A stretch of DNA of 32,901 bases from Saprospiraceae bacterium. Lineage in GTDB: Bacteria > Bacteroidota > Bacteroidia > Chitinophagales > Saprospiraceae. Shown here piece after piece: positions 469 through 18,683 of this stretch. The notes below the pieces were generated by a model, which did no database searches, was not told where the DNA came from, and saw only the letters and a program-made list of their open reading frames with translations. Every line of letters begins with the position of its first letter. The stretch's first letter is position 1. The stretch lies in contig JAHQVP010000333.1 in the NCBI GenBank assembly GCA_019634275.1, forward strand, positions 1 to 32,901, written 5' to 3'. Both the position numbers and the translations under genes were made by a program.

Positions 469-1395
469 ATGACCGTCACAACCAGACGAGCGCAATTTAT
501 TGGAATTGCTTTGGCATTGGCAGGAGCTTTGCTCTTTTCGACCAAAGCGGTTTTAGTTAAACTAGCATATCTCCATGAGGTAGACACGGTTGTACTGCTT
601 TTTCTTCGCATGGGATTTGCCCTCCCTTTCTATGTAGTGGCCGCTGCTCAGATTCGATCAGATGAATGGACCAGGCTAAAGGGGCTGCCTACAAAGTCCT
701 GGCTCGGTGTCTTTCTGGCAGGAGCCTTGGGCTACTATCTTTCCAGCCTGTTGGACTTTTTAGGTCTTCAGTATATCGATGCGAGTGTTGAGCGACTGAT
801 TCTTTTCATTTACCCCACTATCATTGCAATATTGGCGGTCCTCTTCTTAAAAGAGAAAGTCACTAAACTTCAAGGCCTGGCATTGGCGATTTCTTATGGC
901 GGATTGGTTTTTGTCTTTGGTGACCAACTGGGAAATTTTTCGATAACCGATGACTTCTGGAATGGCTCATTGCTCATCCTGGCTTGTGCATTCACCTTTG
1001 CCGCATTCTTGGTGATGAGCCAGTGGTTGATCAAGCCCTTTGGAGTGCGAGCCTTCACAGCTTTTAGTATGATCGTAGCATGCTTAGTGGTCTGTCTCCA
1101 TTTTTTGGCTACTTCGGACTGGGCTGCTCTCCAGCATTTGCCCTGGCAAGTCTATCTGTACGCTATTATCATGGCGATCTTTGCAACGGTATTGCCGTCG
1201 TACCTGGTAAACATGGCCATTCAACGGATTGGCGCCATTCGAATGGCCATCGTCTCAAGTATCGGCCCCTTTTCCACCATAACATTGGCCTATTTATTAC
1301 TCGACGAACGGTTGACGGTTAACCAATTGCTGGGTGCTTTGCTTATCGTAGTAGGTGTAACGGTCGTATCCATTGAGCGAAAGAAGAAGTCTTGA
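469..1395 (+). CDS. EamA/DMT-family transporter
   Basis: A 308-residue, very hydrophobic protein with about ten predicted membrane helices, arranged as two EamA-type halves (roughly residues 9-141 and 160-302). Each half ends with the family's usual pattern, for example FLKEKVT in the first and LLDERLTVNQLLGALLI in the second. Family members export metabolites such as amino acids or purines through the inner membrane; the substrate cannot be inferred here. The start is the first ATG of the frame, and no Shine-Dalgarno sequence is visible, which is normal for Bacteroidota. A PHP-family gene follows after about 40 bases on the same strand and may share its transcript. Length is normal for the family. 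Confidence 0.9.
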   Translation: MTVTTRRAQFIGIALALAGALLFSTKAVLVKLAYLHEVDTVVLLFLRMGFALPFYVVAAAQIRSDEWTRLKGLPTKSWLGVFLAGALGYYLSSLLDFLGLQYIDASVERLILFIYPTIIAILAVLFLKEKVTKLQGLALAISYGGLVFVFGDQLGNFSITDDFWNGSLLILACAFTFAAFLVMSQWLIKPFGVRAFTAFSMIVACLVVCLHFLATSDWAALQHLPWQVYLYAIIMAIFATVLPSYLVNMAIQRIGAIRMAIVSSIGPFSTITLAYLLLDERLTVNQLLGALLIVVGVTVVSIERKKKS

Positions 1396-1436
1396 GGTAG
1401 TTCTTATCAGAGTTGTATTTTGCTAAAAAGCTTGCC

Positions 1437-2561
1437 ATGGTTGTTCGCACTATAGTCCTAACGTTTCTGATCTCCTCCGGATCTTTAATGGCTCAGCATA
1501 GCCATGAACACGGTCGTAAGATTGAGTTTCCCAATGTTCCGGGATATCAGACCCTCAAATGTGATTTTCACATCCATAGTGTCTTTTCCGATGGAAATGT
1601 CTGGCCCACCATAAGGGTTGAGGAGGCCATTCGAGATGGCCTGGATGCCATTTCGCTTACGGAGCATCTCGAATACCAACCTCATAGTGCAGACATGCCA
1701 CATGAAGACCGTAATCGATCTTTTGAGATTGCCAAAGAATTTGCAAAGGCACGGGACATTTTGATCATCCATGGTGCAGAAATCACTCGTGACATGCCCC
1801 CGGGACATGCCAATGCGCTCTTTATCCAAGATGCCAATGCGCTCAATAACATCGAAGATCCCGTCGAGGCTTACCGGGCGGCAGGGGCTCAAGGCGCATT
1901 TGTTTTTTGGAATCACCCAAACTGGTTTCGGCAGTATGAAGATGGAGTCGCACGCATGACCTCCATGCATGAACAATTGATTGCAGAAAATCTATTGCAC
2001 GGTATAGAAGTGGTGAATGACCTTACCTATTCGGACGAGGCACTTCAGATATGCTATGATCATGACCTGGCCGTGGTGGGCACCTCTGACATTCATGGGC
2101 TAGTGGACTGGCAGTTTGAAATACCGGAGGGCGGTCACAGGCCGATCATGCTCGTGTTTGCTGTCAACAGAGATGAAGCATCGATCAAAGAAGCGATGTT
2201 TGCTCATCGGACTTTAGCCTATTTCAATCACCATTTGGTGGGGCGAGAAGAGGTGCTCAATCCGTTGATCGAAGCTTCTTTAAACGTCTCCAAGGCTGCT
2301 TATGAAGGCCCTACCTCTGTAGCCTTTGTCACCATCGAGAATAACAGCGACGCTCCATTCTTGTGTAAAAACGCCGGGATCTATCGCTTCCATAATTTCG
2401 CCGATGTCTTTGAAGTGCCACCACATGGTTCGGTAGAAGTACAGGTCAAGACTTTGGAACAAAAAGCCCAATTTGATTTGGCATTGGAGATCCTTAATGG
2501 CGTCACGAGACCAGGCCAACATCCGACCATTACCCTGAAAGTCGTCATGCCGAAAGAGTAG
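1437..2561 (+). CDS. Exported PHP-domain phosphoesterase-like protein
   Basis: A 374-residue protein with a signal peptide (residues 1 to about 20, ending SLMAQ) and a PHP metallo-hydrolase domain. The metal-site motifs are all present: HIH (H45, H47) followed by SDG (D52), TEH (H77), HGAE (H112, E115), NHPN (H160) and SDIHG (D218, H220). PHP proteins bind up to three metal ions and usually cleave phosphoesters. An exported version probably acts in the periplasm, but its substrate is unknown. The last 110 residues look like a beta-rich accessory domain that I do not recognise. A TTG 24 bases upstream (1413) would give a longer, lysine-containing leader; ATG 1437 is preferred. Convergent with the next gene, with 32 bases between the stops. 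Confidence 0.85.
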   Translation: MVVRTIVLTFLISSGSLMAQHSHEHGRKIEFPNVPGYQTLKCDFHIHSVFSDGNVWPTIRVEEAIRDGLDAISLTEHLEYQPHSADMPHEDRNRSFEIAKEFAKARDILIIHGAEITRDMPPGHANALFIQDANALNNIEDPVEAYRAAGAQGAFVFWNHPNWFRQYEDGVARMTSMHEQLIAENLLHGIEVVNDLTYSDEALQICYDHDLAVVGTSDIHGLVDWQFEIPEGGHRPIMLVFAVNRDEASIKEAMFAHRTLAYFNHHLVGREEVLNPLIEASLNVSKAAYEGPTSVAFVTIENNSDAPFLCKNAGIYRFHNFADVFEVPPHGSVEVQVKTLEQKAQFDLALEILNGVTRPGQHPTITLKVVMPKE

Positions 2562-2593
2562 GTCACAGTGGGATCGGGTGCTTCCCGAAGATG

Positions 2594-3430
2594 CTAGTGA
2601 GCCACTAGCTCATCGTCAACGACGACTGCCCCCATTCTTAATACGGTTCGATAGTGTTCTAATTGTAGGGTGCCCAGATCCAACTGCATGAGTTGCAACT
2701 GTTGTCCCGAAATTTGGATGGGCATGGTGCGCACAATGTCGTTTTGGCGATTGAAAAAGATCAGCTGGGCAATGCCTGCCCTCGGCATTGCGCTGAGAAG
2801 CATATTGATCCGATTGGATTGTGGTACCCGTTGTACTTGTAAGGAGGGACCAAGGGGCGGTTGATCGAATGTGTTCCATGCGGGACTTGTCGCACAAGCG
2901 GTGACTAGAAGTTGAGAACCCAGTCCACTTTCCAAACTGGTGCACTCCAGGCTCTTCTTGGTGTCTAGTCGCAGGCTAAGGGTTAGCTGCCCCACTGCAA
3001 GTTGAGCGGGATCAAGATCGATGGATATCGGTGCTTCTTGCCCTACCTCCGTTTCTCCCAGTAGATGGGCATTGGCAGTGGAATGGAAGAACTGGCCTCC
3101 TCTATCAGGGGATTTGGATAGACGATGCACCGTGAGCAGACCAGCGTGATTGACGGATGTAGGATAGATCAGCAATTGGGCTTCTCGGACAGGATCCTTC
3201 GCTTCTCTCCGATACTCCAGAATGCCGATGTGTTGACGTCGATGCGGCAAGCCTCGCACTCTGAGACGATCTTTTTGTTGCTCAAAAGTAATGGAGTCGC
3301 CGTTTGAGAAAGCCGTGTAGTCTGCTTCTGGCCATTCTACATAGGTCACAATTTGACAATCATTCTGGGATAACCCGTTGCCTAGTATCCCGGTCGAGAG
3401 CAGGATCAGCAAGTATGGAATTCGACTCAT
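2594..3430 (-). CDS. Secreted protein of unknown function with a probable degenerate T9SS sorting domain
   Basis: A 278-residue protein starting with a clear signal peptide (about residues 1-21, ending NGLSQ). The middle part is beta-rich and not recognised. The last 70 residues resemble the type A sorting domain of the type IX secretion system: a segment like AGIAQLIFFNRQNDIVRTM, then QLDLGTLQLEHYRTVLRMG and a short hydrophobic tail ending DELVAH. In typical domains the middle motif reads roughly 'dLs.LpsGvYlvrl..g', so this copy is diverged. If it works, the protein is moved across the outer membrane and either released or attached to the surface. It points away from the MFS transporter region and converges on the PHP gene, so it forms its own transcript. 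Confidence 0.7.
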   Translation of the reverse strand: MSRIPYLLILLSTGILGNGLSQNDCQIVTYVEWPEADYTAFSNGDSITFEQQKDRLRVRGLPHRRQHIGILEYRREAKDPVREAQLLIYPTSVNHAGLLTVHRLSKSPDRGGQFFHSTANAHLLGETEVGQEAPISIDLDPAQLAVGQLTLSLRLDTKKSLECTSLESGLGSQLLVTACATSPAWNTFDQPPLGPSLQVQRVPQSNRINMLLSAMPRAGIAQLIFFNRQNDIVRTMPIQISGQQLQLMQLDLGTLQLEHYRTVLRMGAVVVDDELVAH

Positions 3431-4901: not shown

Positions 4902-7592
4902 ATGTTCCGGATTATAGTTTCAAGTATTGCCCTCTGCTTATCGAGCTGCATAGCGGTCTATTCTCAAGACAAATGGACGGTTGACGACATCATTAAGACA
5001 CAGTTTTTGGGTAACCCCGTTATTTCTGACGACAACAACATGATTGCCTGGACAAAATCTAAGGCAGTCAAGAAAAAGGATCGTTTTGTTCGGGATATCT
5101 ACGTGACGCATCTCGACCAGACAGAATCCGGCATGCCTTTGACGATTCAAATGACACAGGGAGAAGAATCAAACTCGAGTCCTTTGTTCTCCGCTGATGG
5201 GAATACGTTGTATTTTCTTTCGTCTAGAGAGAAGGGCAAGAAGCTGTGGAGCTTAGATCTGCGCGGTGGTGAAGCATCTTCGGTACACGAGTTCAAGCAT
5301 GGAATTTCTTCGATCAAGTGGCTTAACGACAGCACGATCTGCTATCTATCTCATGATGGACCTTTACTTTCTCAACAGGAGGAAGAGAAGAAGAAAGACA
5401 ATGTGGTCGTGGTAGAGGATACGGTGTCTTGGACGCGCACCCGGCTCTATACTTTTGGAGTCAAAGACAAGAAGAATACTCGGATGACAGAGGACTCTTA
5501 TCCGGTGCGTTCGTATGAGGTGTCACCAGATGGTCGTTGGATTATTTATACACTACAGCTTAGTACCCACTATGCCTCGGACGCCAATCCAGATAACCAG
5601 GTCATTCTACTTGATCGGAACACTGGCGAAAAGAGGGTTGTGTTGGCGGATCTACAGGAACCAGGCAATTTTTCATTTATGCATGACAGTCAGGGTTTTT
5701 ACCTGGTTTCGACACTTTCTTCAGATCCTGAGTGGAACGGAGCTGGAGCTGGACAAGTAGGTTACTATGATCTGAGGACACATGAGTTTCACTCGATCCC
5801 GTTAGAGTGGGAATGGGGGGCAACAGGATCAATCTATGTGGATGGCACAGACGTTTTGGTCTCCTTAGCGAATGGACCTTTGACTAAATATGCGTGGTAC
5901 CGCAAAGGAGCCAATGGATGGATGAAAGAGGATCTCGACACTGGGGAATTTGGCGAACATCTTTGGATATTGGCGATGTCCAAAGATGGCGATCGTTTGG
6001 TGGTGGAACACTCCACCGGAGGTGCCTTGCCAAAGTACTTTGCCGTTGCTCCAGACGCCAATCAATTGGACCAACCACTGGAATTTGTAACACTCAACAA
6101 AGGATTGACTGATAAGCCCATTGTAAGGCATGAAATCATGCGTTGGAAAGGCGCTTATGGAGATGAAGTCAACGGCATCCTCTACTACCCCGAGGACTAT
6201 GAAGAAGGGAAACGATACCCATTGATGTTGTCCATACATGGTGGACCTTCGGGAGTGGATCAGGATCGCTGGCGAGAGCGCTGGAGCACTTATCCGCAGA
6301 TAATTGCTCAGCGAGGAGCATTTGTTCTAAAGCCCAATTACCATGGTTCCAGTAATCACGGACAGAAATTCGTCGAGTCGATCAAGGGGCACTACTATGA
6401 TCTCGAAATAGAGGACATCCTGACAGGCTTGGAAAAGTTGGAGCAAGAAGGGAAAGTAGATCCTGATCAATTGGGGGTTATGGGATGGTCAAATGGAGCG
6501 ATTATCGCAACCATGCTGACTGTGCGCTATCCGGATATGTTTAAAGTAGCTTGTCCGGGTGCAGGGGATGTCAATTGGACATCTGATTTCGGCACTTGCC
6601 GTTTTGGAGTGAGCTTTGACCAAAGTTATTTTGGGGGGGCTCCCTGGGATGATCTTGATGGCAAGACCTATAATGAAAACTACATCCTGAAATCGCCCCT
6701 GTTTGAGTTGGAAAAAGTCAAAACGCCTACGATCATCTTTCATGGCAGTGAGGATCGAGCCGTGCCTCGCGACCAGGGTTGGGAGTACTATCGTGCATTG
6801 CAACAGGCTGATCAAACTCCCGTTCGTTTTCTATGGTTTCCCGGACAACCGCATGGCTTGGGTAAGATCACGCACCAGCAGAGAAAGATGAAAGAAGAGC
6901 TGGCATGGATTGATCGCTATCTATTTGATGTGCATGACCATGGTGATCCCTCGATCAAGATCGGAAGTCCCTTAGCGGCGTTGAGTGCTTTGGATTCGAT
7001 GCCCCACCAGCAGGGCTTAATGGGTGTCCTGCATGAGGATGTGTTGATACCCGCGGTACAGCCATGGATGGATGGCATCGCCATTGGGTCCTTCGAAGTA
7101 ACCAATGCACAGTATGCTGCACACGATCCAAATCATAGGGTGCCAGCCACACAGGAGAATTATCCTGCATTGACAAACCATAGACAAGCCCTGGATTATG
7201 TCGCCTGGCTGTCAGATGCAACTGGTCGCACGTTTCGACTCCCTTCAGAAGATGAGGCAGTGACTTTGCATGAAAAGGCAAAGAAACTTGCTGCTAAGGA
7301 AAATACAGTTCGCTATTGGGCAGGCTATGATCTCAATACGAGAGACGCGACTCGCCTGCAGCAGAACATGCGCGGCAACCCAAACCGATTTATTAAGGCG
7401 GTGGGCAGCTTCAATGTGGGAAAGTTGGCCTCCGGCACCTCACTGTATGATCTGGGGGGCAATGTGGCGGAATTTAGCGCAACGGGAAGCACGTATGGAT
7501 TTAGTGCCGTTGACTATGCTGACCAGGCCAGGGAAAGTCAATCCAGCAATGGGGACCTTACAGGATTTCGAGTAGTCGAAGTTTTGAAATGA
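4902..7592 (+). CDS. S9 family (prolyl oligopeptidase-like) peptidase fused to a C-terminal FGE/SUMF1-like domain
   Basis: An 896-residue exported protein with a signal peptide (about 1-21, ending AVYSQ). Residues 25 to ~400 look like the seven-bladed propeller of S9 peptidases. The alpha/beta-hydrolase domain follows (about 420-690), with the nucleophile in GWSNGA (S530), the acid in HGSEDRAVP (D618) and the histidine in GQPHGL (H651). The usual motif is GxSxGG; here the final glycine is alanine. Residues ~700-896 match the formylglycine-generating-enzyme fold: GSFEVTNAQY (about 729-738), a YVAWLSDATGRTFRLPSEDEA block, GNVAEF (853-858) and a terminal GFRVV. No cysteine is seen in this part, so FGE catalysis is unlikely and a binding role is more probable. 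The protein should degrade peptides in the periplasm or at the surface. A weak promoter-like TACCTTTT lies at 4874. The penicillin-acylase gene follows 69 bases later. Confidence 0.88.
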   Translation: MFRIIVSSIALCLSSCIAVYSQDKWTVDDIIKTQFLGNPVISDDNNMIAWTKSKAVKKKDRFVRDIYVTHLDQTESGMPLTIQMTQGEESNSSPLFSADGNTLYFLSSREKGKKLWSLDLRGGEASSVHEFKHGISSIKWLNDSTICYLSHDGPLLSQQEEEKKKDNVVVVEDTVSWTRTRLYTFGVKDKKNTRMTEDSYPVRSYEVSPDGRWIIYTLQLSTHYASDANPDNQVILLDRNTGEKRVVLADLQEPGNFSFMHDSQGFYLVSTLSSDPEWNGAGAGQVGYYDLRTHEFHSIPLEWEWGATGSIYVDGTDVLVSLANGPLTKYAWYRKGANGWMKEDLDTGEFGEHLWILAMSKDGDRLVVEHSTGGALPKYFAVAPDANQLDQPLEFVTLNKGLTDKPIVRHEIMRWKGAYGDEVNGILYYPEDYEEGKRYPLMLSIHGGPSGVDQDRWRERWSTYPQIIAQRGAFVLKPNYHGSSNHGQKFVESIKGHYYDLEIEDILTGLEKLEQEGKVDPDQLGVMGWSNGAIIATMLTVRYPDMFKVACPGAGDVNWTSDFGTCRFGVSFDQSYFGGAPWDDLDGKTYNENYILKSPLFELEKVKTPTIIFHGSEDRAVPRDQGWEYYRALQQADQTPVRFLWFPGQPHGLGKITHQQRKMKEELAWIDRYLFDVHDHGDPSIKIGSPLAALSALDSMPHQQGLMGVLHEDVLIPAVQPWMDGIAIGSFEVTNAQYAAHDPNHRVPATQENYPALTNHRQALDYVAWLSDATGRTFRLPSEDEAVTLHEKAKKLAAKENTVRYWAGYDLNTRDATRLQQNMRGNPNRFIKAVGSFNVGKLASGTSLYDLGGNVAEFSATGSTYGFSAVDYADQARESQSSNGDLTGFRVVEVLK

Positions 7593-7661
7593 AGCAATTA
7601 ATAAAGGCGCAATCGGGATCGAATTTCTGATGGGAGTTTGCGTTCTTGCAGAATATCGTAC

Positions 7662-10079
7662 ATGAAAAAGACGGCCGTAGGAATCATTCTGCTCTGCTTG
7701 GGAATCGCATTGATGTCCAAGAATCTCGAAGTGGGTGGAAATACACTGCCCCCTCTTGGACAGTTTTTGAGTCCCGTACATGGATTTTGGACCTCGGCGG
7801 AAGCAGTCGATGGAAAGAAGGAAATCACCACATTGACCACAAAACAATTAGAAGGGGAGGTTAAGGTCCTCTTCGATGAGCGACTCGTGCCACACATCTT
7901 TGCGGAGACAGATAGCGACTTGTACTATGCGCAAGGCTATGTTACCGCGATGCATCGCTTGTTTCAGATGGACATGGCCACTCGCTCAGCCGAAGGGACA
8001 TTAAGTGAGGTCATTGGCAGTAGAACCCTCGAACTCGATCGTGAAAGGAGGAATCAGGGAATCGGATGGGCAGCGGAAAACGCTGTGCGGGGATGGAAGA
8101 AGCATCCTGAATATTTTGCATTGGTTGAGGCCTATTGTCAGGGAGTAAACGATTATATCGCCACGCTATCGCCTCGGGATTATCCACTGGAATATAAGTT
8201 CTTGGATTTTGCTCCCAGCGCCTGGAGCCCTTACCGCTCTGCCCTCTTCAGCAAAGTCATGGCCATAGACCTTGCCATGGCAGAGTCGGATTTAGAAAAT
8301 TCGAATGCCCGGGCCGCATTTGGCAAAGCCGTGATGGATGATCTGATGCCAGAAAGCAACCCTTACCAGTCTCCGGTAATTCCGTCGGGTACTTCCTGGG
8401 ACTTTGACCCAATCAAGGTAGATTCTCAAGAGGTTGCGGCAAGCGAGGCCTTCCGAAGGGGACGCTTTAGGCCTTCTCCTGCCAATCTAGGGTCTAACAA
8501 TTGGGCAGTGGGAGGTGAGAAAACTGCGGATGGCAGTGTGATTCTCTGCAGTGATCCTCATCTATACCTTACGCTACCCAGTATATGGTTTGAGATCCAC
8601 TTGCAGTCAAAAGAGCAAAATTGCTATGGAGTGTCATTGCCAGGCATCCCCAGTGTGATCATTGGATTTAATGAAGACATTGCCTGGGGACAGACCAATG
8701 TTGGGCAGGACGTCCTTGATTGGTATCAGGTGGAATGGGTGGACGCCAGCCGTCAAAGTTATCGATTGGACGGGGAGATCGAGCCCGTGCAAATGCGAAT
8801 CGAGGAAATCAGCGTTCGGGGACAAGAGGCCATTCGGGATACGATCCGATACACCAGCTGGGGGCCAGTGATGGAAAAAGGAGATTGGAAAGATCTTGCC
8901 ATGCGGTGGCTGGTGCATGACGAACCACAGGTCTGCGAAATCTCTGCTTTGGCCAAGCTAAACAAGGCCAGCAATTTTGAGGAATACCGGGAAGCGCTAT
9001 CGCATTACGTGGCTCCTGCGCAAAACTTTGTCTTTGGATCACGCGAAGGAGACATTGCCATGACGGTTGCGGGAACTCTGCCGCTCCGACGGCCAGGCCA
9101 GGGTCGACTGGTACAAGACGGATCATTTTCAGCCAATGCCTGGCCAGGCTTGATTCCCTACGAACACAACCCCTACGTCAAGAATCCACCCAGGCAATTT
9201 GTGGCTTCCGCCAATCAACACTCGACCGATGACTCTTACCCATATTACTACAATGCCTTTCCCTACTTTGACGATTATCGAGGACGATACCTAAATCAGG
9301 CATTGGAGCAAAAGTCAGACATTACGGTGGAGGATATGGCTCAGCTCCAATTTGACTCTTACAGCTTACTGGCGGCTGAAGGGCTTCCTGTATATCTTGA
9401 GGCCATTGCTGCCAAGTCGATTCCCGATTCTTTGAGGACCATAATTGAAATTCTAAGAGCGTGGGACTATCGCTATACGCCCGAGGCCAAGGCGCCTTAT
9501 ATTTTTGAACAGCTTCACCGACGTATACGCTGGAATGCTTGGGACGAGTTTTATGAGGTGAACGACTCCTTTCCTGTCTCCTTCCCCGAATCCTGGAAGA
9601 CGATTGAGTTGTTAAAAAAAGAACCAGGCCATGCTTTTTTCGATCGACAAGGAACACCCGAAGTGGAGGGAGCGACCGACATAATTTGGCAGGCCTTCAC
9701 AGCGCTGCCGTCCATCCTAAGGAGGTCACAATATGACTTGGAGGTCAGTGATAAAGGCAGCACATTAAAAACCTCGCTCACCCACATAGGTCGATTTCCT
9801 GGCTTTGGTCGAGAAATGACCGATGTAACCGGAAACAGATCCGCTTTAAATGCAACATCCAATGTAACCGGACCATCCTGGCGTATGATCGTAACCCTTG
9901 GAGAAACAGTGCGTGCTCAAGTGGTATACCCGGGAGGGCAATCAGGAAACCCAGGGAGTCCATATTATGAGAACATGGTCGAAGCATGGCGGACAGGAAA
10001 GTACTATTCCGCAAACTTTGTCGGAGATCCCAGTGAATTGCAAGAAGTGGTGGCAGAACTAAACTTTGTAAAACCATGA
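7662..10079 (+). CDS. Penicillin acylase family (S45) N-terminal-nucleophile hydrolase
   Basis: An 805-residue precursor with an N-terminal hydrophobic signal or anchor (MKKTAVGIILLCLGIALMS). The first part carries the A-chain pattern of this family (VPHIFAETDSDLYYAQGYVTAMHRLFQMD). The predicted self-cleavage point precedes the catalytic serine of GSNNWAV (S278 counting from ATG 7662), which becomes the B-chain N-terminus. Downstream, GVSLPGIPSVIIGFNEDIAWGQT is also characteristic. Members cleave amide bonds of acylated amino compounds such as penicillins or acyl-homoserine lactones; the true substrate is unknown. TTG 7638 is in frame but would add eight residues before a good signal sequence, so ATG 7662 is chosen. 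It is probably co-transcribed with the peptidase upstream and the small membrane protein downstream. Confidence 0.9.
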   Translation: MKKTAVGIILLCLGIALMSKNLEVGGNTLPPLGQFLSPVHGFWTSAEAVDGKKEITTLTTKQLEGEVKVLFDERLVPHIFAETDSDLYYAQGYVTAMHRLFQMDMATRSAEGTLSEVIGSRTLELDRERRNQGIGWAAENAVRGWKKHPEYFALVEAYCQGVNDYIATLSPRDYPLEYKFLDFAPSAWSPYRSALFSKVMAIDLAMAESDLENSNARAAFGKAVMDDLMPESNPYQSPVIPSGTSWDFDPIKVDSQEVAASEAFRRGRFRPSPANLGSNNWAVGGEKTADGSVILCSDPHLYLTLPSIWFEIHLQSKEQNCYGVSLPGIPSVIIGFNEDIAWGQTNVGQDVLDWYQVEWVDASRQSYRLDGEIEPVQMRIEEISVRGQEAIRDTIRYTSWGPVMEKGDWKDLAMRWLVHDEPQVCEISALAKLNKASNFEEYREALSHYVAPAQNFVFGSREGDIAMTVAGTLPLRRPGQGRLVQDGSFSANAWPGLIPYEHNPYVKNPPRQFVASANQHSTDDSYPYYYNAFPYFDDYRGRYLNQALEQKSDITVEDMAQLQFDSYSLLAAEGLPVYLEAIAAKSIPDSLRTIIEILRAWDYRYTPEAKAPYIFEQLHRRIRWNAWDEFYEVNDSFPVSFPESWKTIELLKKEPGHAFFDRQGTPEVEGATDIIWQAFTALPSILRRSQYDLEVSDKGSTLKTSLTHIGRFPGFGREMTDVTGNRSALNATSNVTGPSWRMIVTLGETVRAQVVYPGGQSGNPGSPYYENMVEAWRTGKYYSANFVGDPSELQEVVAELNFVKP

Positions 10080-10547: not shown

Positions 10548-11201
10548 GTGAAATCTAAAAATACAAGTGTATCATCGGTCGACCGTGCAGTCATTAGGCA
10601 GATGTGGACGCCCCATACACGCCTTCCTCAGAAACGCTACGAAGCCATTGTGATGTTTACAGATGTCGTGGGCTTTTCGCGCGTCATGCATGAAGATGAG
10701 GAGAATGCCATCATCAAACTGGAAAAGATCAGAAGGTTGATAGAGCGACACCACGCCAATTCCAATGGTCGGATCATACAGTACTACGGGGACGGCTGCC
10801 TTAGTGTATTTGATAATGCGGCAGACGCCCTTCACTGTGCAATCGCCATCCAGGGCCAGAGCAGAAAACAAGAAATACTCCCGTTGCGCATTGGCATACA
10901 CGGAGGAGACATTGTGGAAAAGGACGGTGCAATCTATGGAGATGTTGTAAATATTGCCGCTCGCGTGGAAGCCGCAGGAGCAGAAGGGGTGATACTGGTT
11001 TCGAATTTTGTCAGACAGAAGGCGAAAGGTGCGTTCGACTTCATGGAGTTAGGAAGGCGATTGTTTAAGAATATTGATGCTCCAGTAGTAATTCATGCTG
11101 TTCGACATGCTATGACAAATTTACCTCCTTCGAAGACATCTTCTCCATTGCAGAGGGCAGCAAGTCAACTGCTTCGCTTTGCTTCCATGATGCTTGCCTA
11201 G
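10548..11201 (+). CDS. Class III adenylate/guanylate cyclase domain protein
   Basis: A 217-residue soluble protein that is almost only a cyclase homology domain (about residues 29-185). The metal-binding aspartates are present in MFTDVVGF (D39) and YGDG (D82), and the transition-state pair in VNIAAR (N135, R139). At the base-selecting position three residues before GDG, where adenylate cyclases usually have Lys and guanylate cyclases Glu, this protein has Gln (Q78), so the product (cAMP or cGMP) is uncertain. No transmembrane, HAMP or other sensor domain is attached. The GTG start is the first in frame; an ATG at 10602 would leave out 18 polar residues and is a real alternative. The gene stands alone, with 115 bases before it and about 120 after. 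Confidence 0.85.
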   Translation: MKSKNTSVSSVDRAVIRQMWTPHTRLPQKRYEAIVMFTDVVGFSRVMHEDEENAIIKLEKIRRLIERHHANSNGRIIQYYGDGCLSVFDNAADALHCAIAIQGQSRKQEILPLRIGIHGGDIVEKDGAIYGDVVNIAARVEAAGAEGVILVSNFVRQKAKGAFDFMELGRRLFKNIDAPVVIHAVRHAMTNLPPSKTSSPLQRAASQLLRFASMMLA

Positions 11202-11325
11202 CTCTTTGATCGAGTTAGTTGCTTCCTCAATCTGTTTGCACATGAAGCTGATCGGACAATTGCGCGAGCCCGGCACTTACTTCTTATCTTAGTCTTATCA
11301 GTTGCAAACGATCAATTTCAGTAAG

Positions 11326-12501
11326 ATGAAGAACTTGACTTTCAGTATTCTAGTGGGGTTATCCAGTTTCGCGATCGGTTATGTCTTAGGAGAACGTACT
11401 CAGGCAGCAGACCAAACCGCCTTAGAATCAAATGACATAGCGGGAGAGCGCCCAGGCTCAGCGACTTCAGATCGTGTGGTAGAGGTAGAGCCTGCTGCAT
11501 ACGCTTCGGTGCGCAATGAAGCTGATCCTAACTATTCCCGAGCAGAACTGGCGACCATTAATCTCTTTGAAGATGCTGCACCGTCCGTCGTCTACATCAA
11601 TACCTCCAATTACCGACAAAATTACTGGACCCGTGACCTCACCGAAATACCACGAGGCAGTGGATCTGGATTCGTGTGGGACAAAGAAGGGCATATTGTC
11701 ACAAATTTTCATGTGATCCAAGACGCAGATAAAGCGATCGTCACCCTTGCCAATCAGGAGAGCTACGAAGCGGACTTAGTAGGTTACGCACCGGAGAAGG
11801 ATCTGGCCATCTTGCGCATAAAGGCTCCTCGTCAGGATGTGGTGCCCATAAAGAAGGGAGACTCCGAACAACTTAAAGTGGGACAATCGGTATTTGCGAT
11901 TGGAAATCCTTTTGGCTTGGATCAGACATTGACTACTGGAATTATCAGTGCGTTGGGTCGGGAGATTAAATCTCAATCTGGCAGTCCCATCAAAGATGTC
12001 ATCCAGACCGATGCGGCCATCAATCCAGGCAACAGTGGTGGTCCGCTACTGGATTCACGTGGATCTTTGATCGGAGTGAATACCGCCATCAAGAGTCCCT
12101 CTGGTGCCTATGCAGGCATTGGATTCTCGATACCAGTTGATGTAGTGAAGTGGGTCGTACCGGATTTGATCAAATATGGAAAGATCAATCGACCAATGTT
12201 GGGCGTACAACTTGCACGTCAAAGTCAGACCAGCAGAGCCGGGATAAAGGGAGCGCTTGTTTTTGAGGTCGAGCCCGGAAGTGCCGCTGCCAAAGCAGGT
12301 GTGCAACCTACCAGGAGGACACGAGACGGTGATTTTGTCTTGGGAGACATCATCGTGCAAGTGGAGGAAACCCAAATCGCCACTAACAATGATCTGTTCC
12401 TGGCCCTTGAAGCATATCGACCAGGTGATCGAATTGAAGTCACGGTCATACGCGACGACAATCCGATCAAATTGAATGTGGTATTGGACCAAGGCAAATG
12501 A
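11326..12501 (+). CDS. HtrA/DegP-type trypsin-like serine protease (S1C) with one PDZ domain
   Basis: A 391-residue envelope protease starting at ATG 11326 with a hydrophobic signal or anchor (MKNLTFSILVGLSSFAIGYV). The protease domain contains the full triad: TNFHV (H129), EKDLAIL (D159) and GNSGGPL (S237). The oxyanion-region motif AIGNPFGLDQTLTTGI is also standard. One PDZ domain follows (about 285-390, with GALVFEVEPGSAAAKAG and GDIIVQVEETQI). Members degrade or refold damaged periplasmic proteins. With a single PDZ domain and an N-terminal anchor it is nearer to DegS-like architecture, but many Bacteroidota have one-PDZ HtrA proteins that act as general quality-control enzymes. An in-frame TTG at 11302 is a less likely start. 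Confidence 0.93.
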   Translation: MKNLTFSILVGLSSFAIGYVLGERTQAADQTALESNDIAGERPGSATSDRVVEVEPAAYASVRNEADPNYSRAELATINLFEDAAPSVVYINTSNYRQNYWTRDLTEIPRGSGSGFVWDKEGHIVTNFHVIQDADKAIVTLANQESYEADLVGYAPEKDLAILRIKAPRQDVVPIKKGDSEQLKVGQSVFAIGNPFGLDQTLTTGIISALGREIKSQSGSPIKDVIQTDAAINPGNSGGPLLDSRGSLIGVNTAIKSPSGAYAGIGFSIPVDVVKWVVPDLIKYGKINRPMLGVQLARQSQTSRAGIKGALVFEVEPGSAAAKAGVQPTRRTRDGDFVLGDIIVQVEETQIATNNDLFLALEAYRPGDRIEVTVIRDDNPIKLNVVLDQGK

Positions 12502-12737
12502 GCAGGAATTGGCCCTCATGAAATGGCTTGCTCCCTATATTGCTTTTCAACCCGGTTTATGCAATGGGTTTTCGTCATGAGACGCCAAAGCCCAAGGAGA
12601 ATGGGGGCTCCACGGTAATTTTGACGCGCAGACGTGGTCACCATCACGGTGAGCATCAAAATTGCTGGACGTGCCCAGTCTCAAAGGGATCTGGCGTCGG
12701 AATAGATTATCTATTGCATAAAGCGGGTTCAACGAAT
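12502..12737. other. Intergenic region between convergent genes with a doubtful small frame
   Basis: About 236 bases between the protease stop and the stop of the opposite-strand gene. A frame from TTG 12528 begins with a hydrophobic stretch (LPILLFNPVYAMGF), then a His-rich and Cys-x-x-Cys segment (HHHGEH, CWTC), but it runs into the 3' half of the opposite gene. An ATG at 12519 reads 20 residues in another frame before stopping. A broken small exported protein is conceivable, but the evidence is too weak to call a gene. No terminator is evident. Confidence 0.4.
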
Positions 12738-13361
12738 CTAGCGACGATAGAAGGATCCTCTGATTTTACCCCGGCGATTGATCAAGACCAGTCGACGTCG
12801 GTCGAGTTGGATCAGATTGCCTTTATGATCCTCAAAACCATTAGGTCCCGCATGGAAGGTTCTTGAACCGAATCCCAGTCCGCGGACACGAAGAGCCCCT
12901 CTGCGCGATCGGATAAACAAGCAGTCGTCATTCCAATAGTTGACCCAGGTTCCTTGCAAGTCCCTGGCTTGAACCGCCCTTCTAACGCGGTTGCCGCCTC
13001 TCCAGTCGTTCCTGGACGAGTAGGAGCGGCCCCTCTGGTAGGTCCTATTCCGGGAATTTGATCGATTGAATTGAATGCGCTTCCGACCATCAGAGCTTTC
13101 CCACTCCAATTGACCATTGCTCAATACATAGTAGGTGTTGCCTTGCTGATCCTGAAATTGGTTGTTGCGTACTTCTCTATACTGTCTCCAGCGTGACTGC
13201 CCAATACGTAAGACCCGTATTCCCTGGGGAGTTCTCTCCACCTGGACCTGTACTTGGTGGCGGGAATTTGACCAGTAACCCTCTACTTGTTGAGTGACGG
13301 CTTTCGCTTCAACCAGAACACAGGAAGCGAGAAGCATACTTAAGATGACAAGATTTCTCAT
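12738..13361 (-). CDS. Basic secreted protein of two similar halves, unknown function
   Basis: A 207-residue protein with an N-terminal signal (MRNLVILSMLLASCVLVEAKA). LASC could be a lipobox, or signal peptidase I may cut after AKA. Two segments resemble each other: about residues 27-100 (EGYWSNSRHQV ... NQFQDQQGNTYYVL ... GRKRIQFNR) and about 137-207 (QGTWVNYWNDDCL ... NGFEDHKGNLIQL ... GKIRGSFYRR), suggesting an internal duplication. They are joined by an Arg/Ser/Tyr-rich linker. The protein is strongly basic, so it could bind nucleic acid or anionic polysaccharide; that is only inference. The start is ATG 13361; a TTG three codons upstream is also possible. It is divergent from the SusC gene. 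Confidence 0.7.
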   Translation of the reverse strand: MRNLVILSMLLASCVLVEAKAVTQQVEGYWSNSRHQVQVQVERTPQGIRVLRIGQSRWRQYREVRNNQFQDQQGNTYYVLSNGQLEWESSDGRKRIQFNRSNSRNRTYQRGRSYSSRNDWRGGNRVRRAVQARDLQGTWVNYWNDDCLFIRSRRGALRVRGLGFGSRTFHAGPNGFEDHKGNLIQLDRRRLVLINRRGKIRGSFYRR

Positions 13362-13672: not shown

Positions 13673-16600
13673 ATGAAAAAGCTCATTTTACCTCTACTAC
13701 TGGTATTGTTTGTGACGGGCTTTGTTTCTGCTCAAAGGACGGTCACGGGAACCATTACCAATGATGATGGTGAGCCGCTGATCGGGGCGTCAGTCCTGGT
13801 AAAAGGTACCACTGTTGGTACTGTTGCCGACTTTGATGGTACGTACACACTCGATGTGCCCGATGGAAGCAATACCCTTGTCTTCAGCTTTACAGGTTAC
13901 CAACAACAGGAGATCGAACTCGGTACTTCTAATGTGGTGGATCTTGTATTGTCCGAAGGCGTTGAACTAGGTGAGGTAGTAGTTACCGGCCTCGGTATCA
14001 AGCGAGAAAAGAAAGCACTTGGATACGGTGTCTCAACCATCGCATCCGGTGACATCGCTGGTCGACAAGAGGCTGACGTCGCGCGTATTTTGCGTGGTAA
14101 AGCTACAGGGGTAGACATTACCCAAACATCCGGTCTTGCAGGATCGGGTACCAACGTTATCATTCGGGGCTATTCCTCGATCACGGGTAACAACCAACCG
14201 CTGTTTATCGTAGACGGTATTCCTTTTAATAGTGAAACCAATACGAACTCAGGATTTGGAGCCGGTGGTGCAGCAGCATCCAGTCGTTTCCTTGATCTTG
14301 ATCCCAATGCCATTGCTGAGGTCTCTATCCTTAAGGGATTGAGTGCAACAGTACTATATGGTGAAGCGGGACGAAATGGGGTGATCCTGATCACCACCAA
14401 AAACGGTAACGCAGGTGTCGATGCCAACAAAGGACTGGAAGTATCTGTTACGCAGGCGCTTTCCTTTTCAGAGGTAGCCAACTTACCTGATTATCAGAAT
14501 ACTTTCGGAAACGGATTTAACGCTGGTTTTGGATGGTTCTTCTCTAACTGGGGTGCGGCTTTTGCAGATTTGAAGCCAAGCAGCTACGGCTCTGACTATA
14601 AAGGAGAGAAGAATGGTCAAGTATTGATCACGCATCCTTACGATCAGGCTCAGTATCACGACGATTTTCCTGAGTACATCGGTGCGGAATATCCTTATCA
14701 GCCTTTTAGCAGTGTTGAAGAGTTTTTGGGTGATCCTGGAATGACTGCCAACACCTCGGTCTCTATCGAGAGTAAATTGGGAGCTAATGCTTCAGTATCA
14801 GCCACATACAGCTACTTGAATGATGAAGGGTTTACGCCTAAATTGGACGAGGAACGTGGTGGTGGAGCTTCAAACTTCCTCAAGAAGCACAACCTCGGAC
14901 TAGGAGCGCGTACAAAGCTTGCTAATGGCCTTGAGATTCAAGGTACGTTCAACTTTGTGGCTTCTGACCGACGTACACCGATCACCAGTACAGCCTTTGG
15001 TGGTGCCGGTAACGGACTATTTGCAGCCGTATTGTTTACGCCACGATCTATGGACTTGATGGGACTTCCTTATCAAAGCCCGATTGACGGATCAAACGTA
15101 TACTACCGACGGGGTTCTCCGATTCAGAATCCACGATGGATCTTGAATAACGGAGCAGATGTTGACAACACACTTCGTTTCTTCAGTACCCTGAAATTGG
15201 GTTATGAGTTGACTGACAACATTCGATTCCAATACCAATTGGGTATCGATCAGTACTCATTGAAGCAAACAAGAACGCAAAACCGTGGTGGGGCCAACAA
15301 TCCTGATGGTTTTATGAACACCTCAAACAGGTTAAGTAGAATCTCAGATCAGCTCTTCAACGTACTGTATCAATTTGAATTGACTCCGGACTTCTCGCTT
15401 GATGGTATCTTAGGATTTAACATCCGCCGTGAAGTACAGGAAGGATTTATTGATGTAGCATCTCAGCAGTTCGTTTACGGACTCTTTACTACACAGAACT
15501 TTATCAACCACCAGTCGTTCTCAGGCTTTGCTGAGGAGAACACACTTGGTGCCTACGCTACTGCCACACTTGGATATAAGAACTATGCATACTTGAACTT
15601 GCAGGTTCGTAATGACTGGACTTCTACCTTGGAAGAAGCCAATCGTTCTGTCCTTTATCCATCTGTGAGCTTGTCATTTGTACCAACAGATGCGATCCCA
15701 AGTCTTCAGAACAGCACTGTTCTGAACTACTTGAAGATTCGACTTGGATATGGTACTTCTGCAGGATATCCAAATCCATATCAAACACGTAACGTGTTGA
15801 ATACCTATACCAATGGTTTCGTAGCCGCTGACGGTACGATTCTTAATGGTAACCAGGTATCTGGTCGATTGGGTAACGGAAACCTGATGCGCGAGTTGCA
15901 TACAGAGATTGAAGGGGGAATTGAAGCACGCTTCTTGCGTAATCGCATTGGTGTTGATCTCTCGCTCTACAATCGAAATTCAAGTGACTTGATCATCGAT
16001 TTGAACTTGGATCCAGCGACTGGATTTAACAATACCACAGTAAATGCTGCGGAGTTGGAGAACAAAGGTGTTGAACTTGGTTTGAACATTACTCCATTCC
16101 AGGGTGACTTCCAGTGGGACATCACATTGAACTACACCAAGAACGTAAGCGAAGTACTTGCCATCGCTGAAGGAATCGATCAAATTCAGATTCGTAGCGA
16201 AGGAGACGTACTTACTGGTGATGGAGCCGCAGGTTTCAACGGAGGTCTTGGTAACTACGCGATCGTAGGACAGCCTTACGGTATCATGCAAGGTTCTTCT
16301 TTCATCAGAGATGATGCTGGAAACCTAGTGGTCGATGGACAAGGTGCATACCAAGCCGCTTCTGGTCTGGGCATCATCGGCGATCCTAACAACAACTTCC
16401 AGGCCAACTGGATTAACAACTTCTCTTACAAGGGATTGTCTTTTGGTTTCCAGTGGCAGTACATCGATGGAGGAGACATCTATTCTTCTACCGTACAAGC
16501 ATTGCTTGCTAGGGGTAACACCGTCGATACCGATGTGGACCGTTTTGTACCGGTTATCATGCCTGGTGTTAAAGCGGACGGAACTCCTAATGATATTCAG

Positions 16601-16918
16601 ACATACATCGGAGATACATTCTTTAGAGCGTACTTCTTTGCAAACGAAGGTGGAGTATTTGATGCTACTACCATCCGCTTGCGTGAAGTTTCTCTTGCTT
16701 ATGTATTGCCAAGCAAATTATTGGAGCGAACTCCTTTCGGACGCGCGGGCATTACCATCTCAGGTGAAAACCTATGGTACAATGCACCAAACTTCCCTAA
16801 AGGAATAAACTTTGATCCAGAGGTTCTCAGCCTTGGGGTAGGTAACGGTCGTGGTTTTGACTTCCGAACTGCTCCTACGGTTAAGAAATATGGTGTGAAT
16901 CTATCACTGACCTTCTAA
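13673..16918 (+). CDS. SusC/RagA-type TonB-dependent outer-membrane transporter
   Basis: A 1081-residue outer-membrane protein with a signal peptide (MKKLILPLLLVLFVTGFVSAQ). A carboxypeptidase-regulatory-like domain follows (about 22-95, TVTGTITNDDGEPLIGASV). Then comes the SusC signature EVVVTGLGIKREKKALGY and a plug domain (to about residue 230, with the NNQPLFIVDGIPFN and LKGLSATVLYGEAGRNGVIL motifs). The rest is a long beta-barrel ending in an aromatic residue (LSLTF). With its SusD partner it forms a lid-covered pore that imports oligosaccharides or peptides using TonB energy; the substrate is not readable. Length and start fit the family. No sensor or ECF sigma/anti-sigma pair adjoins it. 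It is first in a three-gene operon. Confidence 0.97.
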   Translation: MKKLILPLLLVLFVTGFVSAQRTVTGTITNDDGEPLIGASVLVKGTTVGTVADFDGTYTLDVPDGSNTLVFSFTGYQQQEIELGTSNVVDLVLSEGVELGEVVVTGLGIKREKKALGYGVSTIASGDIAGRQEADVARILRGKATGVDITQTSGLAGSGTNVIIRGYSSITGNNQPLFIVDGIPFNSETNTNSGFGAGGAAASSRFLDLDPNAIAEVSILKGLSATVLYGEAGRNGVILITTKNGNAGVDANKGLEVSVTQALSFSEVANLPDYQNTFGNGFNAGFGWFFSNWGAAFADLKPSSYGSDYKGEKNGQVLITHPYDQAQYHDDFPEYIGAEYPYQPFSSVEEFLGDPGMTANTSVSIESKLGANASVSATYSYLNDEGFTPKLDEERGGGASNFLKKHNLGLGARTKLANGLEIQGTFNFVASDRRTPITSTAFGGAGNGLFAAVLFTPRSMDLMGLPYQSPIDGSNVYYRRGSPIQNPRWILNNGADVDNTLRFFSTLKLGYELTDNIRFQYQLGIDQYSLKQTRTQNRGGANNPDGFMNTSNRLSRISDQLFNVLYQFELTPDFSLDGILGFNIRREVQEGFIDVASQQFVYGLFTTQNFINHQSFSGFAEENTLGAYATATLGYKNYAYLNLQVRNDWTSTLEEANRSVLYPSVSLSFVPTDAIPSLQNSTVLNYLKIRLGYGTSAGYPNPYQTRNVLNTYTNGFVAADGTILNGNQVSGRLGNGNLMRELHTEIEGGIEARFLRNRIGVDLSLYNRNSSDLIIDLNLDPATGFNNTTVNAAELENKGVELGLNITPFQGDFQWDITLNYTKNVSEVLAIAEGIDQIQIRSEGDVLTGDGAAGFNGGLGNYAIVGQPYGIMQGSSFIRDDAGNLVVDGQGAYQAASGLGIIGDPNNNFQANWINNFSYKGLSFGFQWQYIDGGDIYSSTVQALLARGNTVDTDVDRFVPVIMPGVKADGTPNDIQTYIGDTFFRAYFFANEGGVFDATTIRLREVSLAYVLPSKLLERTPFGRAGITISGENLWYNAPNFPKGINFDPEVLSLGVGNGRGFDFRTAPTVKKYGVNLSLTF

Positions 16919-16958
16919 TGTTTCGGAGATAATTTCGCAAATCGTAAAAAAGAATATT

Positions 16959-18683
16959 ATGAAATATTTAAATAAGTTGATTGTCGTTGTCTTCGCTGCA
17001 TTGATGGTTACTGCCTGTGATAACACAGAACTTGATCTTCAGGATAACCCTGCTGCGGTTACTCCCGAGCGCGCAAGTGTCAATGACTTGTACAACAATA
17101 TCCAGCTCACGTTCAGCAACGTATTTTTCAATGTTGCTGGTCGTAGCACGGCCCCTGGGACGCATGCTCGCATGTACCACATGGGATCTTTTAACTACAT
17201 CGCGGCCTCCTCGCCTACTACCTTCAACGGGTTGTGGTTTAACACCTACTCAGGATTATTCCCTGACATAGAGGCACTTGAGGTTATCGCCGCAGAAAAA
17301 GGGTTTGATATCCATTCCGGTACAGCAAAAATCATGAAGGCGTATGCTTTGATGGCGCTTGTTGATGTACTGAATGATGTGCCTATGTCTCAAGCGGGAC
17401 AGGGTACAGATGTGATCAGCCCTGGTGCTGACAGTGGTGCAGATGTATATCGCGCTGCTGTAGATCTACTGGATGCAGCGATCTCTCAGTTGAGTGGTAC
17501 TTCTGCGCCAGCTCCTGCTTTTGATAACTTCTACGGCGGCGACGCTGCGAAGTGGGTTACTTTGGCCAATACGCTTAAGCTAAGGGCCGCAGTAACTACC
17601 CGTTTGATTGACCCATCAGGTGCTACTGCAGCTGTTTCTTCACTGACGGACATCATTGATGATCCATCAGAAGACTTCCAGTTTAACTATGGAAGCCAGC
17701 GGAACAATCCAAACTCTCGCTCTAGCATGTACAATAACCACTACGAGCAAGGAGATGGGGACTACCTCTCTAACTACTACATGTGGTTGTTAGCTGGTGA
17801 AAAGCTAGATGCTGATGAGAATGAGATTCGTGATCCACGTATCCGCTACTACTTCTACCGCAAGGAGAAGAATACGGCAGATCAGGATTTGACGACCTAC
17901 TCTTGTCACTTCTCTATCGCACCGACTCAAGATGCTGCTCCTGATCATTGGGACGCAGTTGATTCTAGAATTCCTTATTGCATCGCAACCTCAGATGGAT
18001 ACTCTGGTAGAGATCATGGTAACGGTGAAGGAACCCCTCCTGATGGTCCTATTCGTACTTCTTACGGATTGTACCCAGGTGGAGGATCTTTTGATGACGA
18101 GACCTTTGAGGACACGCGTAACGCGGGTACCACTGGTGGACTCGGACAGGGAATCGATCCGATTATGTTGTCTTCTTTCGTGAATTTCATGAAGGCAGAG
18201 GTAGCCATTGCCAACGGTGATGCCGCTACTGGACGCACAGAATTGGAAGCAGGTCTACGGGCGGCTTTTGCCAAGGTAGAATCTTTCGAAAGCTTGGTTT
18301 CAAGTACTATGAGCGACATCAGAATAGTTCGTGAAAACGAATTTACGGTGAAGGAGCTTTATGGTCTGAACGAAGAGCGTACCAACGAGTACATTGATTT
18401 TGTACTTGGGCAGTATGACGCTGCTGCAAATGACACGGAGCGTATGGATGTTGCTATGAAGGAGTACTTCATTGCACTTTGGGGCAATGGTCTGGAGGCG
18501 TACAATATGTATCGTCGTACAGGTATGCCTTTAAACATGCAGCCAACGCTTGAGCCTAGCAGCGGTGAGTTCGCAACTTCATTTTTCTTACCTGATGTAC
18601 ACGTAAACAGAAATGCGAATGCTACTCAGAAGGAAATCACAGATCGTGTTTTCTGGGATGATGGTTCTGCTAACGTGTATTAA
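16959..18683 (+). CDS. SusD/RagB-type nutrient-binding surface lipoprotein
   Basis: A 574-residue lipoprotein with a lipobox (LMVTAC, lipid on C20). The SusD-like pattern is visible in DNTELDLQDNP at the mature N-terminus, helical tetratricopeptide-like segments (AKIMKAYALMALVDVLNDVPMSQA and DVYRAAVDLLDAAISQL) and the C-terminal ALWGNGLEAYNMYRRTGMP region. It resembles the SusD-like group common in Saprospiria and Cytophagia. It sits 40 bases after the susC-like gene and caps that transporter from the outside, capturing substrate. The operon contains no enzyme that would reveal the substrate. The start is the first ATG, just before the basic MKYLNK segment. Confidence 0.95.
   Translation: MKYLNKLIVVVFAALMVTACDNTELDLQDNPAAVTPERASVNDLYNNIQLTFSNVFFNVAGRSTAPGTHARMYHMGSFNYIAASSPTTFNGLWFNTYSGLFPDIEALEVIAAEKGFDIHSGTAKIMKAYALMALVDVLNDVPMSQAGQGTDVISPGADSGADVYRAAVDLLDAAISQLSGTSAPAPAFDNFYGGDAAKWVTLANTLKLRAAVTTRLIDPSGATAAVSSLTDIIDDPSEDFQFNYGSQRNNPNSRSSMYNNHYEQGDGDYLSNYYMWLLAGEKLDADENEIRDPRIRYYFYRKEKNTADQDLTTYSCHFSIAPTQDAAPDHWDAVDSRIPYCIATSDGYSGRDHGNGEGTPPDGPIRTSYGLYPGGGSFDDETFEDTRNAGTTGGLGQGIDPIMLSSFVNFMKAEVAIANGDAATGRTELEAGLRAAFAKVESFESLVSSTMSDIRIVRENEFTVKELYGLNEERTNEYIDFVLGQYDAAANDTERMDVAMKEYFIALWGNGLEAYNMYRRTGMPLNMQPTLEPSSGEFATSFFLPDVHVNRNANATQKEITDRVFWDDGSANVY

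Follow-up and report, generated by a model that had tools for sequence, protein, structure and literature searches.

The window, the whole stretch of 32,901 nucleotides analysed here, carries on its + strand an ATG-initiated open reading frame (4902–7592) whose 896-residue product is an S9 peptidase extended by a C-terminal tail of the FGE/SUMF1 group. This architecture is real and widely shared; the combination was recorded earlier, and the subfamily is unstudied as far as the literature searched goes. The sequence-only reading had proposed such a fusion, and the Pfam scan agrees, with PF00326 and PF03781 both over their cut-offs. Here an enzyme fold serves as an attachment that seems to be non-catalytic, in a protein other than the T9SS ring components, where such reuse is known.

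Domain map and catalytic half

The polypeptide begins with a probable signal peptide, judged by eye (residues 1–22, 4902–4967); a lipobox-like LSSC is present in the window's copy and, again by eye, absent from most relatives displayed. It continues with a β-propeller (about residues 24–410, 4971–6131), marked by a PD40 match at residues 84–116 and modelled mostly as strands, an α/β hydrolase of the Peptidase_S9 type (about residues 411–675, 6132–6926) and the FGE-like tail (residues 686–896, 6957–7589). The Pfam and NCBIfam matches listed for the 896-residue protein include no T9SS sorting domain. PF00326 covers residues 463–674 with 139.1 bits against a cut-off of 22.6 (E 1.8e-40). The Ser-Asp-His triad occurs in order, with Ser530 in GWSNGA (6489–6491), Asp618 in GSEDRAVP (6753–6755) and His651 in GQPHG (6852–6854), the catalytic roles being assigned by homology, and all three residues are kept in 41 of the 41 alignment rows.

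The model of the full protein aligns to S9 structures across residues 23–675, in agreement with an N-terminal β-propeller, and is uncertain at residues 554–654 and in parts of the tail. Its best solved match is 8wt1 from Geobacillus (Z 31.8 over 546 residues, 20% identity), and the other S9C-like peptidases or carboxypeptidases with the same propeller and hydrolase come from Deinococcus (5yzm–5yzo; 5yzn, Z 28.0 over 534 residues) and Fusobacterium (7ep9, Z 21.6), at 18–20% identity overall. These solved chains, of about 650–690 residues, stop at the hydrolase and have no tail. Since S9 enzymes and propellers, that is, one part of the protein, fill the fold list obtained with the full model, this list is uninformative against an FGE fold in the tail.

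Porphyromonas gingivalis DPP5 and the acylpeptidyl oligopeptidase AOP (S9C) are likewise S9 peptidases of Bacteroidota, AOP being a suspected counterpart of the present enzyme. DPP5 differs, as testified by the score of the window's protein in the Dpp5 equivalog model NF053518 (147.8 bits, below the cut-off of 900). The best reading of the sequence is that of an S9C-like oligopeptidase, in which peptidase activity would be retained. In the available part of PMC8048996, the P. gingivalis DPPs and AOP are described as exopeptidases that trim peptides in the periplasm, and by analogy with these S9 relatives a peptide-trimming role may be suggested here.

Fold and sequence of the FGE-like tail

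In the whole protein PF03781 is a weak match (residues 749–879, 7146–7538; 24.2 bits against a cut-off of 23.3). It rises to 30.3 bits (E 4.4e-7) when residues 686–896 are scanned alone, and because the tails of relatives match as well, 23 of the 23 scanned doing so at E ≤ 0.01 (best 9.8e-14), the match lies beyond chance. The motifs quoted in the sequence-only reading are located at EVTNAQY (from residue 732), RLPSEDEA (from 779), GNVAEF (853–858, 7458–7475) and GFRVV (888–892, 7563–7577). Among 40 tails, the invariant residues are E732, T734, Y766, R779, E785, N801, G808, G853, N854, E857, G888 and R890, which are largely FGE core motifs, together with P690 of the linker. The latter lies in a conserved SPL motif at the hydrolase/tail junction (residues 689–691, 6966–6974), which is part of the tail and slightly precedes the boundary of about residue 700 given earlier; residue 689 is Ser in 30 tails and Ala in the other 10. 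The short linker and the presence of P690 in 40 of 40 tails suggest a fixed packing of the tail. Two further stretches of the alignment, around ENTLxxWAGY and GYSAYDY, are conserved specifically in this family. Conservation over 25 rows amounts to 0.61 and 0.59 in the two tail parts, 0.63 in the propeller and 0.85 in the hydrolase, so that the tail has evolved at about the pace of the propeller.

A profile of the tail compared with solved structures retrieves PorK, ToxD and PvdO at E-values of 1.9e-8 to 4.9e-8 and, more weakly, OvoA (5.6e-4), EgtB (0.016) and FGE (0.27); PorK chains head these matches, the best of them being the sum of short weak pieces. The AlphaFold2 model of the tail alone has a mean pLDDT of 61.9, with 94 of 221 residues below 50. 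With this low-confidence model only ToxD falls below a Foldseek E-value of 0.001 (4.6e-4), followed by PvdO (0.018), the Treponema variable protein TdeVP (0.41) and human FGE (1.4). Realignment to structures of the FGE group yields Z values of 8 to 10.7 over 124–140 residues, namely, over 131–140 residues, 10.7 for TdeVP, 10.1 for CarF and for PvdO, 9.3 for ToxD, 8.7 for PorK (5.7 over 134 residues for another PorK entry) and 8.6 for human FGE, which constitute support and not proof, since the tool warns that a best Z of 7 to 8 is common. Profile and model comparisons thus give modest support for assigning the tail to the FGE/PvdO/ToxD/PorK fold group, and the absence of an FGE fold, which would have contradicted the initial proposal, is not what the comparisons with PvdO, ToxD, PorK and human FGE indicate, at the low confidence of the model.

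FGE proper binds copper through a cysteine pair near its C-terminus. The tail in the window has no cysteine in residues 686–896, as had been noticed from the sequence, and over the 40 tails, window included, there is no cysteine in 31, one in 8 and two in 1, with a C-x(3-5)-C pair in 0 of 40. It was accordingly predicted not to be a formylglycine generator; without the pair it cannot be a copper FGE, and an active FGE was set aside on this ground. The tail shares with FGE/SUMF1 proper the E-x-T, RLP, GNxxE and GFR elements and, by the weak model, a likeness of fold, but it differs in the missing cysteine pair, the shortened C-terminal part and the eroded RGGSW-type element. The stretch from GN to GFR spans 34–41 residues in the 39 tails measured, one of the 40 having yielded no length, whereas it is longer in the host's own three FGE-like proteins (L001–L003), where it contains RGGSW, KGGSW or RGGSY. 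Much of the FGE C-terminal part is gone. RGGAA is still readable in the tails of two distant relatives (L113 and L114), which agrees with a tail that may have decayed from a complete FGE-like domain, a course that fits the sequences. One of the host proteins, L001, is GldK (568.2 bits, over the cut-off), L002 is related to it, and the third, L003 (G000:C325:15143–15823), is a 312-residue protein with a signal peptide recognized by eye.

Relatives and catalytic clade

Forty distinct relatives, 38–60% identical to the window's protein, were collected from Saprospiraceae, Lewinella, Flavobacteriaceae, four further families of the same phylum and an Aminicenantes bacterium. The tail is visible in 39 of them; in the 40th (L042) a contig end precedes it, and this relative counts for the catalytic clade only. 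The N-terminus is missing from L080 and L043, and L078, L082 and L084, second copies of L033, L031 and L032, were left out of the counts. In a collection of named genomes the full-length query returned 14 loci, from Saprospiraceae, Lewinella, Winogradskyella, Seonamhaeicola, Robertkochia, a contig labelled Thalassovita and the Aminicenantes bacterium, together with a Flavobacteriaceae bacterium whose locus is cut before the tail. The Thalassovita (Pseudomonadota) label belongs to a 7.3-kb contig whose positions 1–1935 (L043) are taken up by a tailed S9 gene with 55.7% identity to that of the window; it is possibly a mis-binned Bacteroidota contig.

A survey of the architecture had been proposed, and it proves recurrent. 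Within the window's family the tail is found at E < 1e-40 in 14 of 199 genomes, the window's included; 21 of the 199 match at E ≤ 0.001, the remaining seven at 4.8e-5 or weaker. In the phylum-wide set of 395 genomes, the tail profile finds 18 at E ≤ 1e-20, all in stop-free frames of 897–1008 residues, and 20 of 114 genomes match within one order. Two genes joined by an assembly or gene-prediction artefact would be conceivable in a genome as fragmented as the window's (368 contigs, 89.81% complete), but tail and catalytic domain share one frame in 39 other relatives, which refutes this explanation, and one-contig genomes (G216 and G284) are among the carriers; we regard it as vanishingly improbable.

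Most relatives were found with queries that contain the tail, and a tail-free catalytic query served as the control. Applied to the 395 phylum genomes, with at most six candidates scored in each, it matched 20 genomes at E ≤ 1e-50. Of these, 18 coincide with the carriers from the tail search, and each of them has a catalytic match of 59% identity or more within a frame of at least 897 residues. The other four catalytic matches, two in carriers and two in other genomes, are 38–40% identical and sit in frames of 696–771 residues, too short for a tail. No tail-less member of the tailed clade was seen in everything examined.

A tree of 67 catalytic domains, from which matches covering fewer than 180 residues of the query had been dropped, has a single branch (support 100/100, stem of 1.94 changes per column) that separates the 41 members of the tailed clade from 26 other S9 enzymes; the tree is midpoint-rooted and carries a long-branch warning that includes the window's side. 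After the hydrolase match the 26 other enzymes have 0–24 residues, with the exception of L072, whose extension of 262 residues contains no FGE domain by Pfam at E ≤ 0.01. Since the tail follows one catalytic clade, its distribution requires no more than a single joining event, although the root may lie within the clade and long branches may have had an influence. The L072 enzyme, an 895-residue S9 peptidase at 718–3405 on the − strand, has a different long C-terminal tail with no Pfam domain at E ≤ 0.01. In Robertkochia (L040) the tailed gene is immediately followed, at 10687–12756, by that of a second, tail-less S9 peptidase (689 residues, 29.9% identity).

Role of the tail and gene neighbourhood

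We propose a serine oligo- or exopeptidase of the S9C-like branch that is exported, most likely to the periplasm, and would use the usual Ser-Asp-His mechanism to cleave short peptides in the chamber that lies between its propeller and its hydrolase. The shortened FGE-fold domain, devoid of the cysteine pair and fused after the hydrolase, would act structurally and not catalytically, the short conserved linker keeping it packed against the hydrolase, and its most likely role would lie in the assembly of subunits and the control of access to the active site. Taken as a whole, this explanation, an exported S9C-like peptidase with a non-catalytic FGE-fold module for assembly or access control, has in our estimate about an even chance of being correct. 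Among the roles, assembly or gating ranks first as the most likely, and substrate binding next. A more far-reaching version has a distinct S9 subfamily capture a decayed oxidase fold a single time, early on, and turn it into a dedicated access or substrate-selection module needed for assembly or peptide choice; it is tentative and stands well below an even chance.

The tail could instead be a ligand- or substrate-binding module that captures peptides or glycopeptides with the C-type-lectin-like face of the FGE fold. By Z, the tail model matches TdeVP best, a member of a class of proteins known for ligand binding, and the two family-specific patches are conserved. However, Z values from 10.7 to 10.1 are ties and the Foldseek E-value of TdeVP is 0.41, most invariant residues of the tail belong to the general FGE core motifs, and the would-be binding loops are among the low-confidence parts of the model; such a module is possible, although we would sooner doubt it than accept it. 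An active oxidase of the FGE, EgtB or PvdO type, modifying the peptides handled by the peptidase, is highly improbable: PvdO and sulfoxide synthases do occur among the matches of the tail, but the 40 tails have neither a conserved cysteine nor a C-x(3-5)-C pair, and the short GN-to-GFR stretch and the eroded RGGSW-type element speak against it as well.

The sequence-only reading had also raised the possibility of an anchor resembling GldJ and GldK, that is, a tail that would dock the peptidase to the ring of the gliding or type IX secretion machinery, much like the docking FGE-like folds in PorK, GldK and GldJ. PorK chains head the tail-profile matches, the best through several short pieces, and PorK's FGE-like fold is a docking hub in the portion of PMC12421860 available; SprA is present in 18 of the 18 carriers, which are not independent lineages. 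But SprA is over its cut-off in 303 of the 395 phylum genomes anyway, the tail scores 12.6 bits in the PorK/GldK equivalog model TIGR03525, below the cut-off of 350, and only 2 of the 18 carriers reach the GldK cut-off. In 7 more the GldK matches are all below threshold, some of them being the tail itself, and the remaining 9 give nothing at E ≤ 0.001. Among the sub-threshold matches two, in separate carriers, are long, scoring 177.5 and 156.3 bits in frames of 614 and 606 residues, and may be divergent ring proteins. In the Aminicenantes carrier, a genome whose completeness is not given, there is no SprA match, and the one GldK match (25.5 bits, in a frame of 909 residues) is by its length the tailed peptidase. 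Anchoring to a GldK ring, poorly supported by these counts, was set aside, and docking to the ring is improbable.

For the structural module that we favour, the nearest precedent of a reused FGE fold is the docking hub of PorK (PMC12421860, seen in part). According to the same portion of that source, PorK/GldK and GldJ likewise have a structural FGE fold without active-site cysteines; they build the T9SS ring or the gliding track, whereas here the fold forms the tail of a peptidase, and 16 of the 18 carriers have no GldK over the cut-off. The combination of a POP-family protein with a formylglycine-generating-type domain appears in a 2014 survey of prokaryotic prolyl oligopeptidases (Kaushik and Sowdhamini, PMC4522959), where the Figure 3 legend contains "FGS-Formylglycine-generating sulfatase". 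In the portion of the text available, this is a legend abbreviation only, with no domain order, members or role, and section 8 does not discuss it; the architecture had thus been recorded, which partly answers the concern that it was already well described, without being described further there. Apart from this survey, no work naming both S9/POP and FGE was found among the literature matches listed, and the available part of PMC2605481 mentions neither FGE nor sulfatase nor formylglycine. The 39 relatives with visible tails offer a test set for how accessory domains alter S9 peptidases; the interest would be minor if the tail merely stabilises the enzyme, and is modest until its effect is measured.

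Outside the enzyme, a penicillin-amidase-family acylase (7638–10079, + strand; PF01804, E 5.9e-188) starts 45 bases downstream of the peptidase on the same strand. The co-occurrence of the two genes, suggested earlier as a point to survey, is not a rule: among 40 further distinct loci, an acylase adjoins the peptidase just once (L031, of the same genus, where it is cut by the contig end), and the acylase was set aside as a general partner. The DNA available downstream measures 0 bases in L042, 873 in L031, 1590 in L033, 2505 in L081 and 2560 in L036, and more than 4500 bases in the other 35 of the 40 loci. Clustering of the neighbours in 39 loci, L124 being left out through the ORF selection, gave no cluster present in more than 5 of 39, the peptidase itself aside. 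Clusters 1, 2, 5, 8, 13, 15 and 19 mix distant genomes and may reflect a weak association. Within the window's family, L085, L087 and L088 share a gene of 202–207 residues directly upstream of the tailed gene, and L032 and L080 share one of about 1060 residues directly downstream. Further along the window lie a small class III nucleotide cyclase (10548–11201; PF00211, E 2.4e-10) and an uptake pair (13673–18683), in which a SusD-like protein (PF12771, E 3.3e-27) comes after a TonB-dependent receptor plug protein (PF07715).
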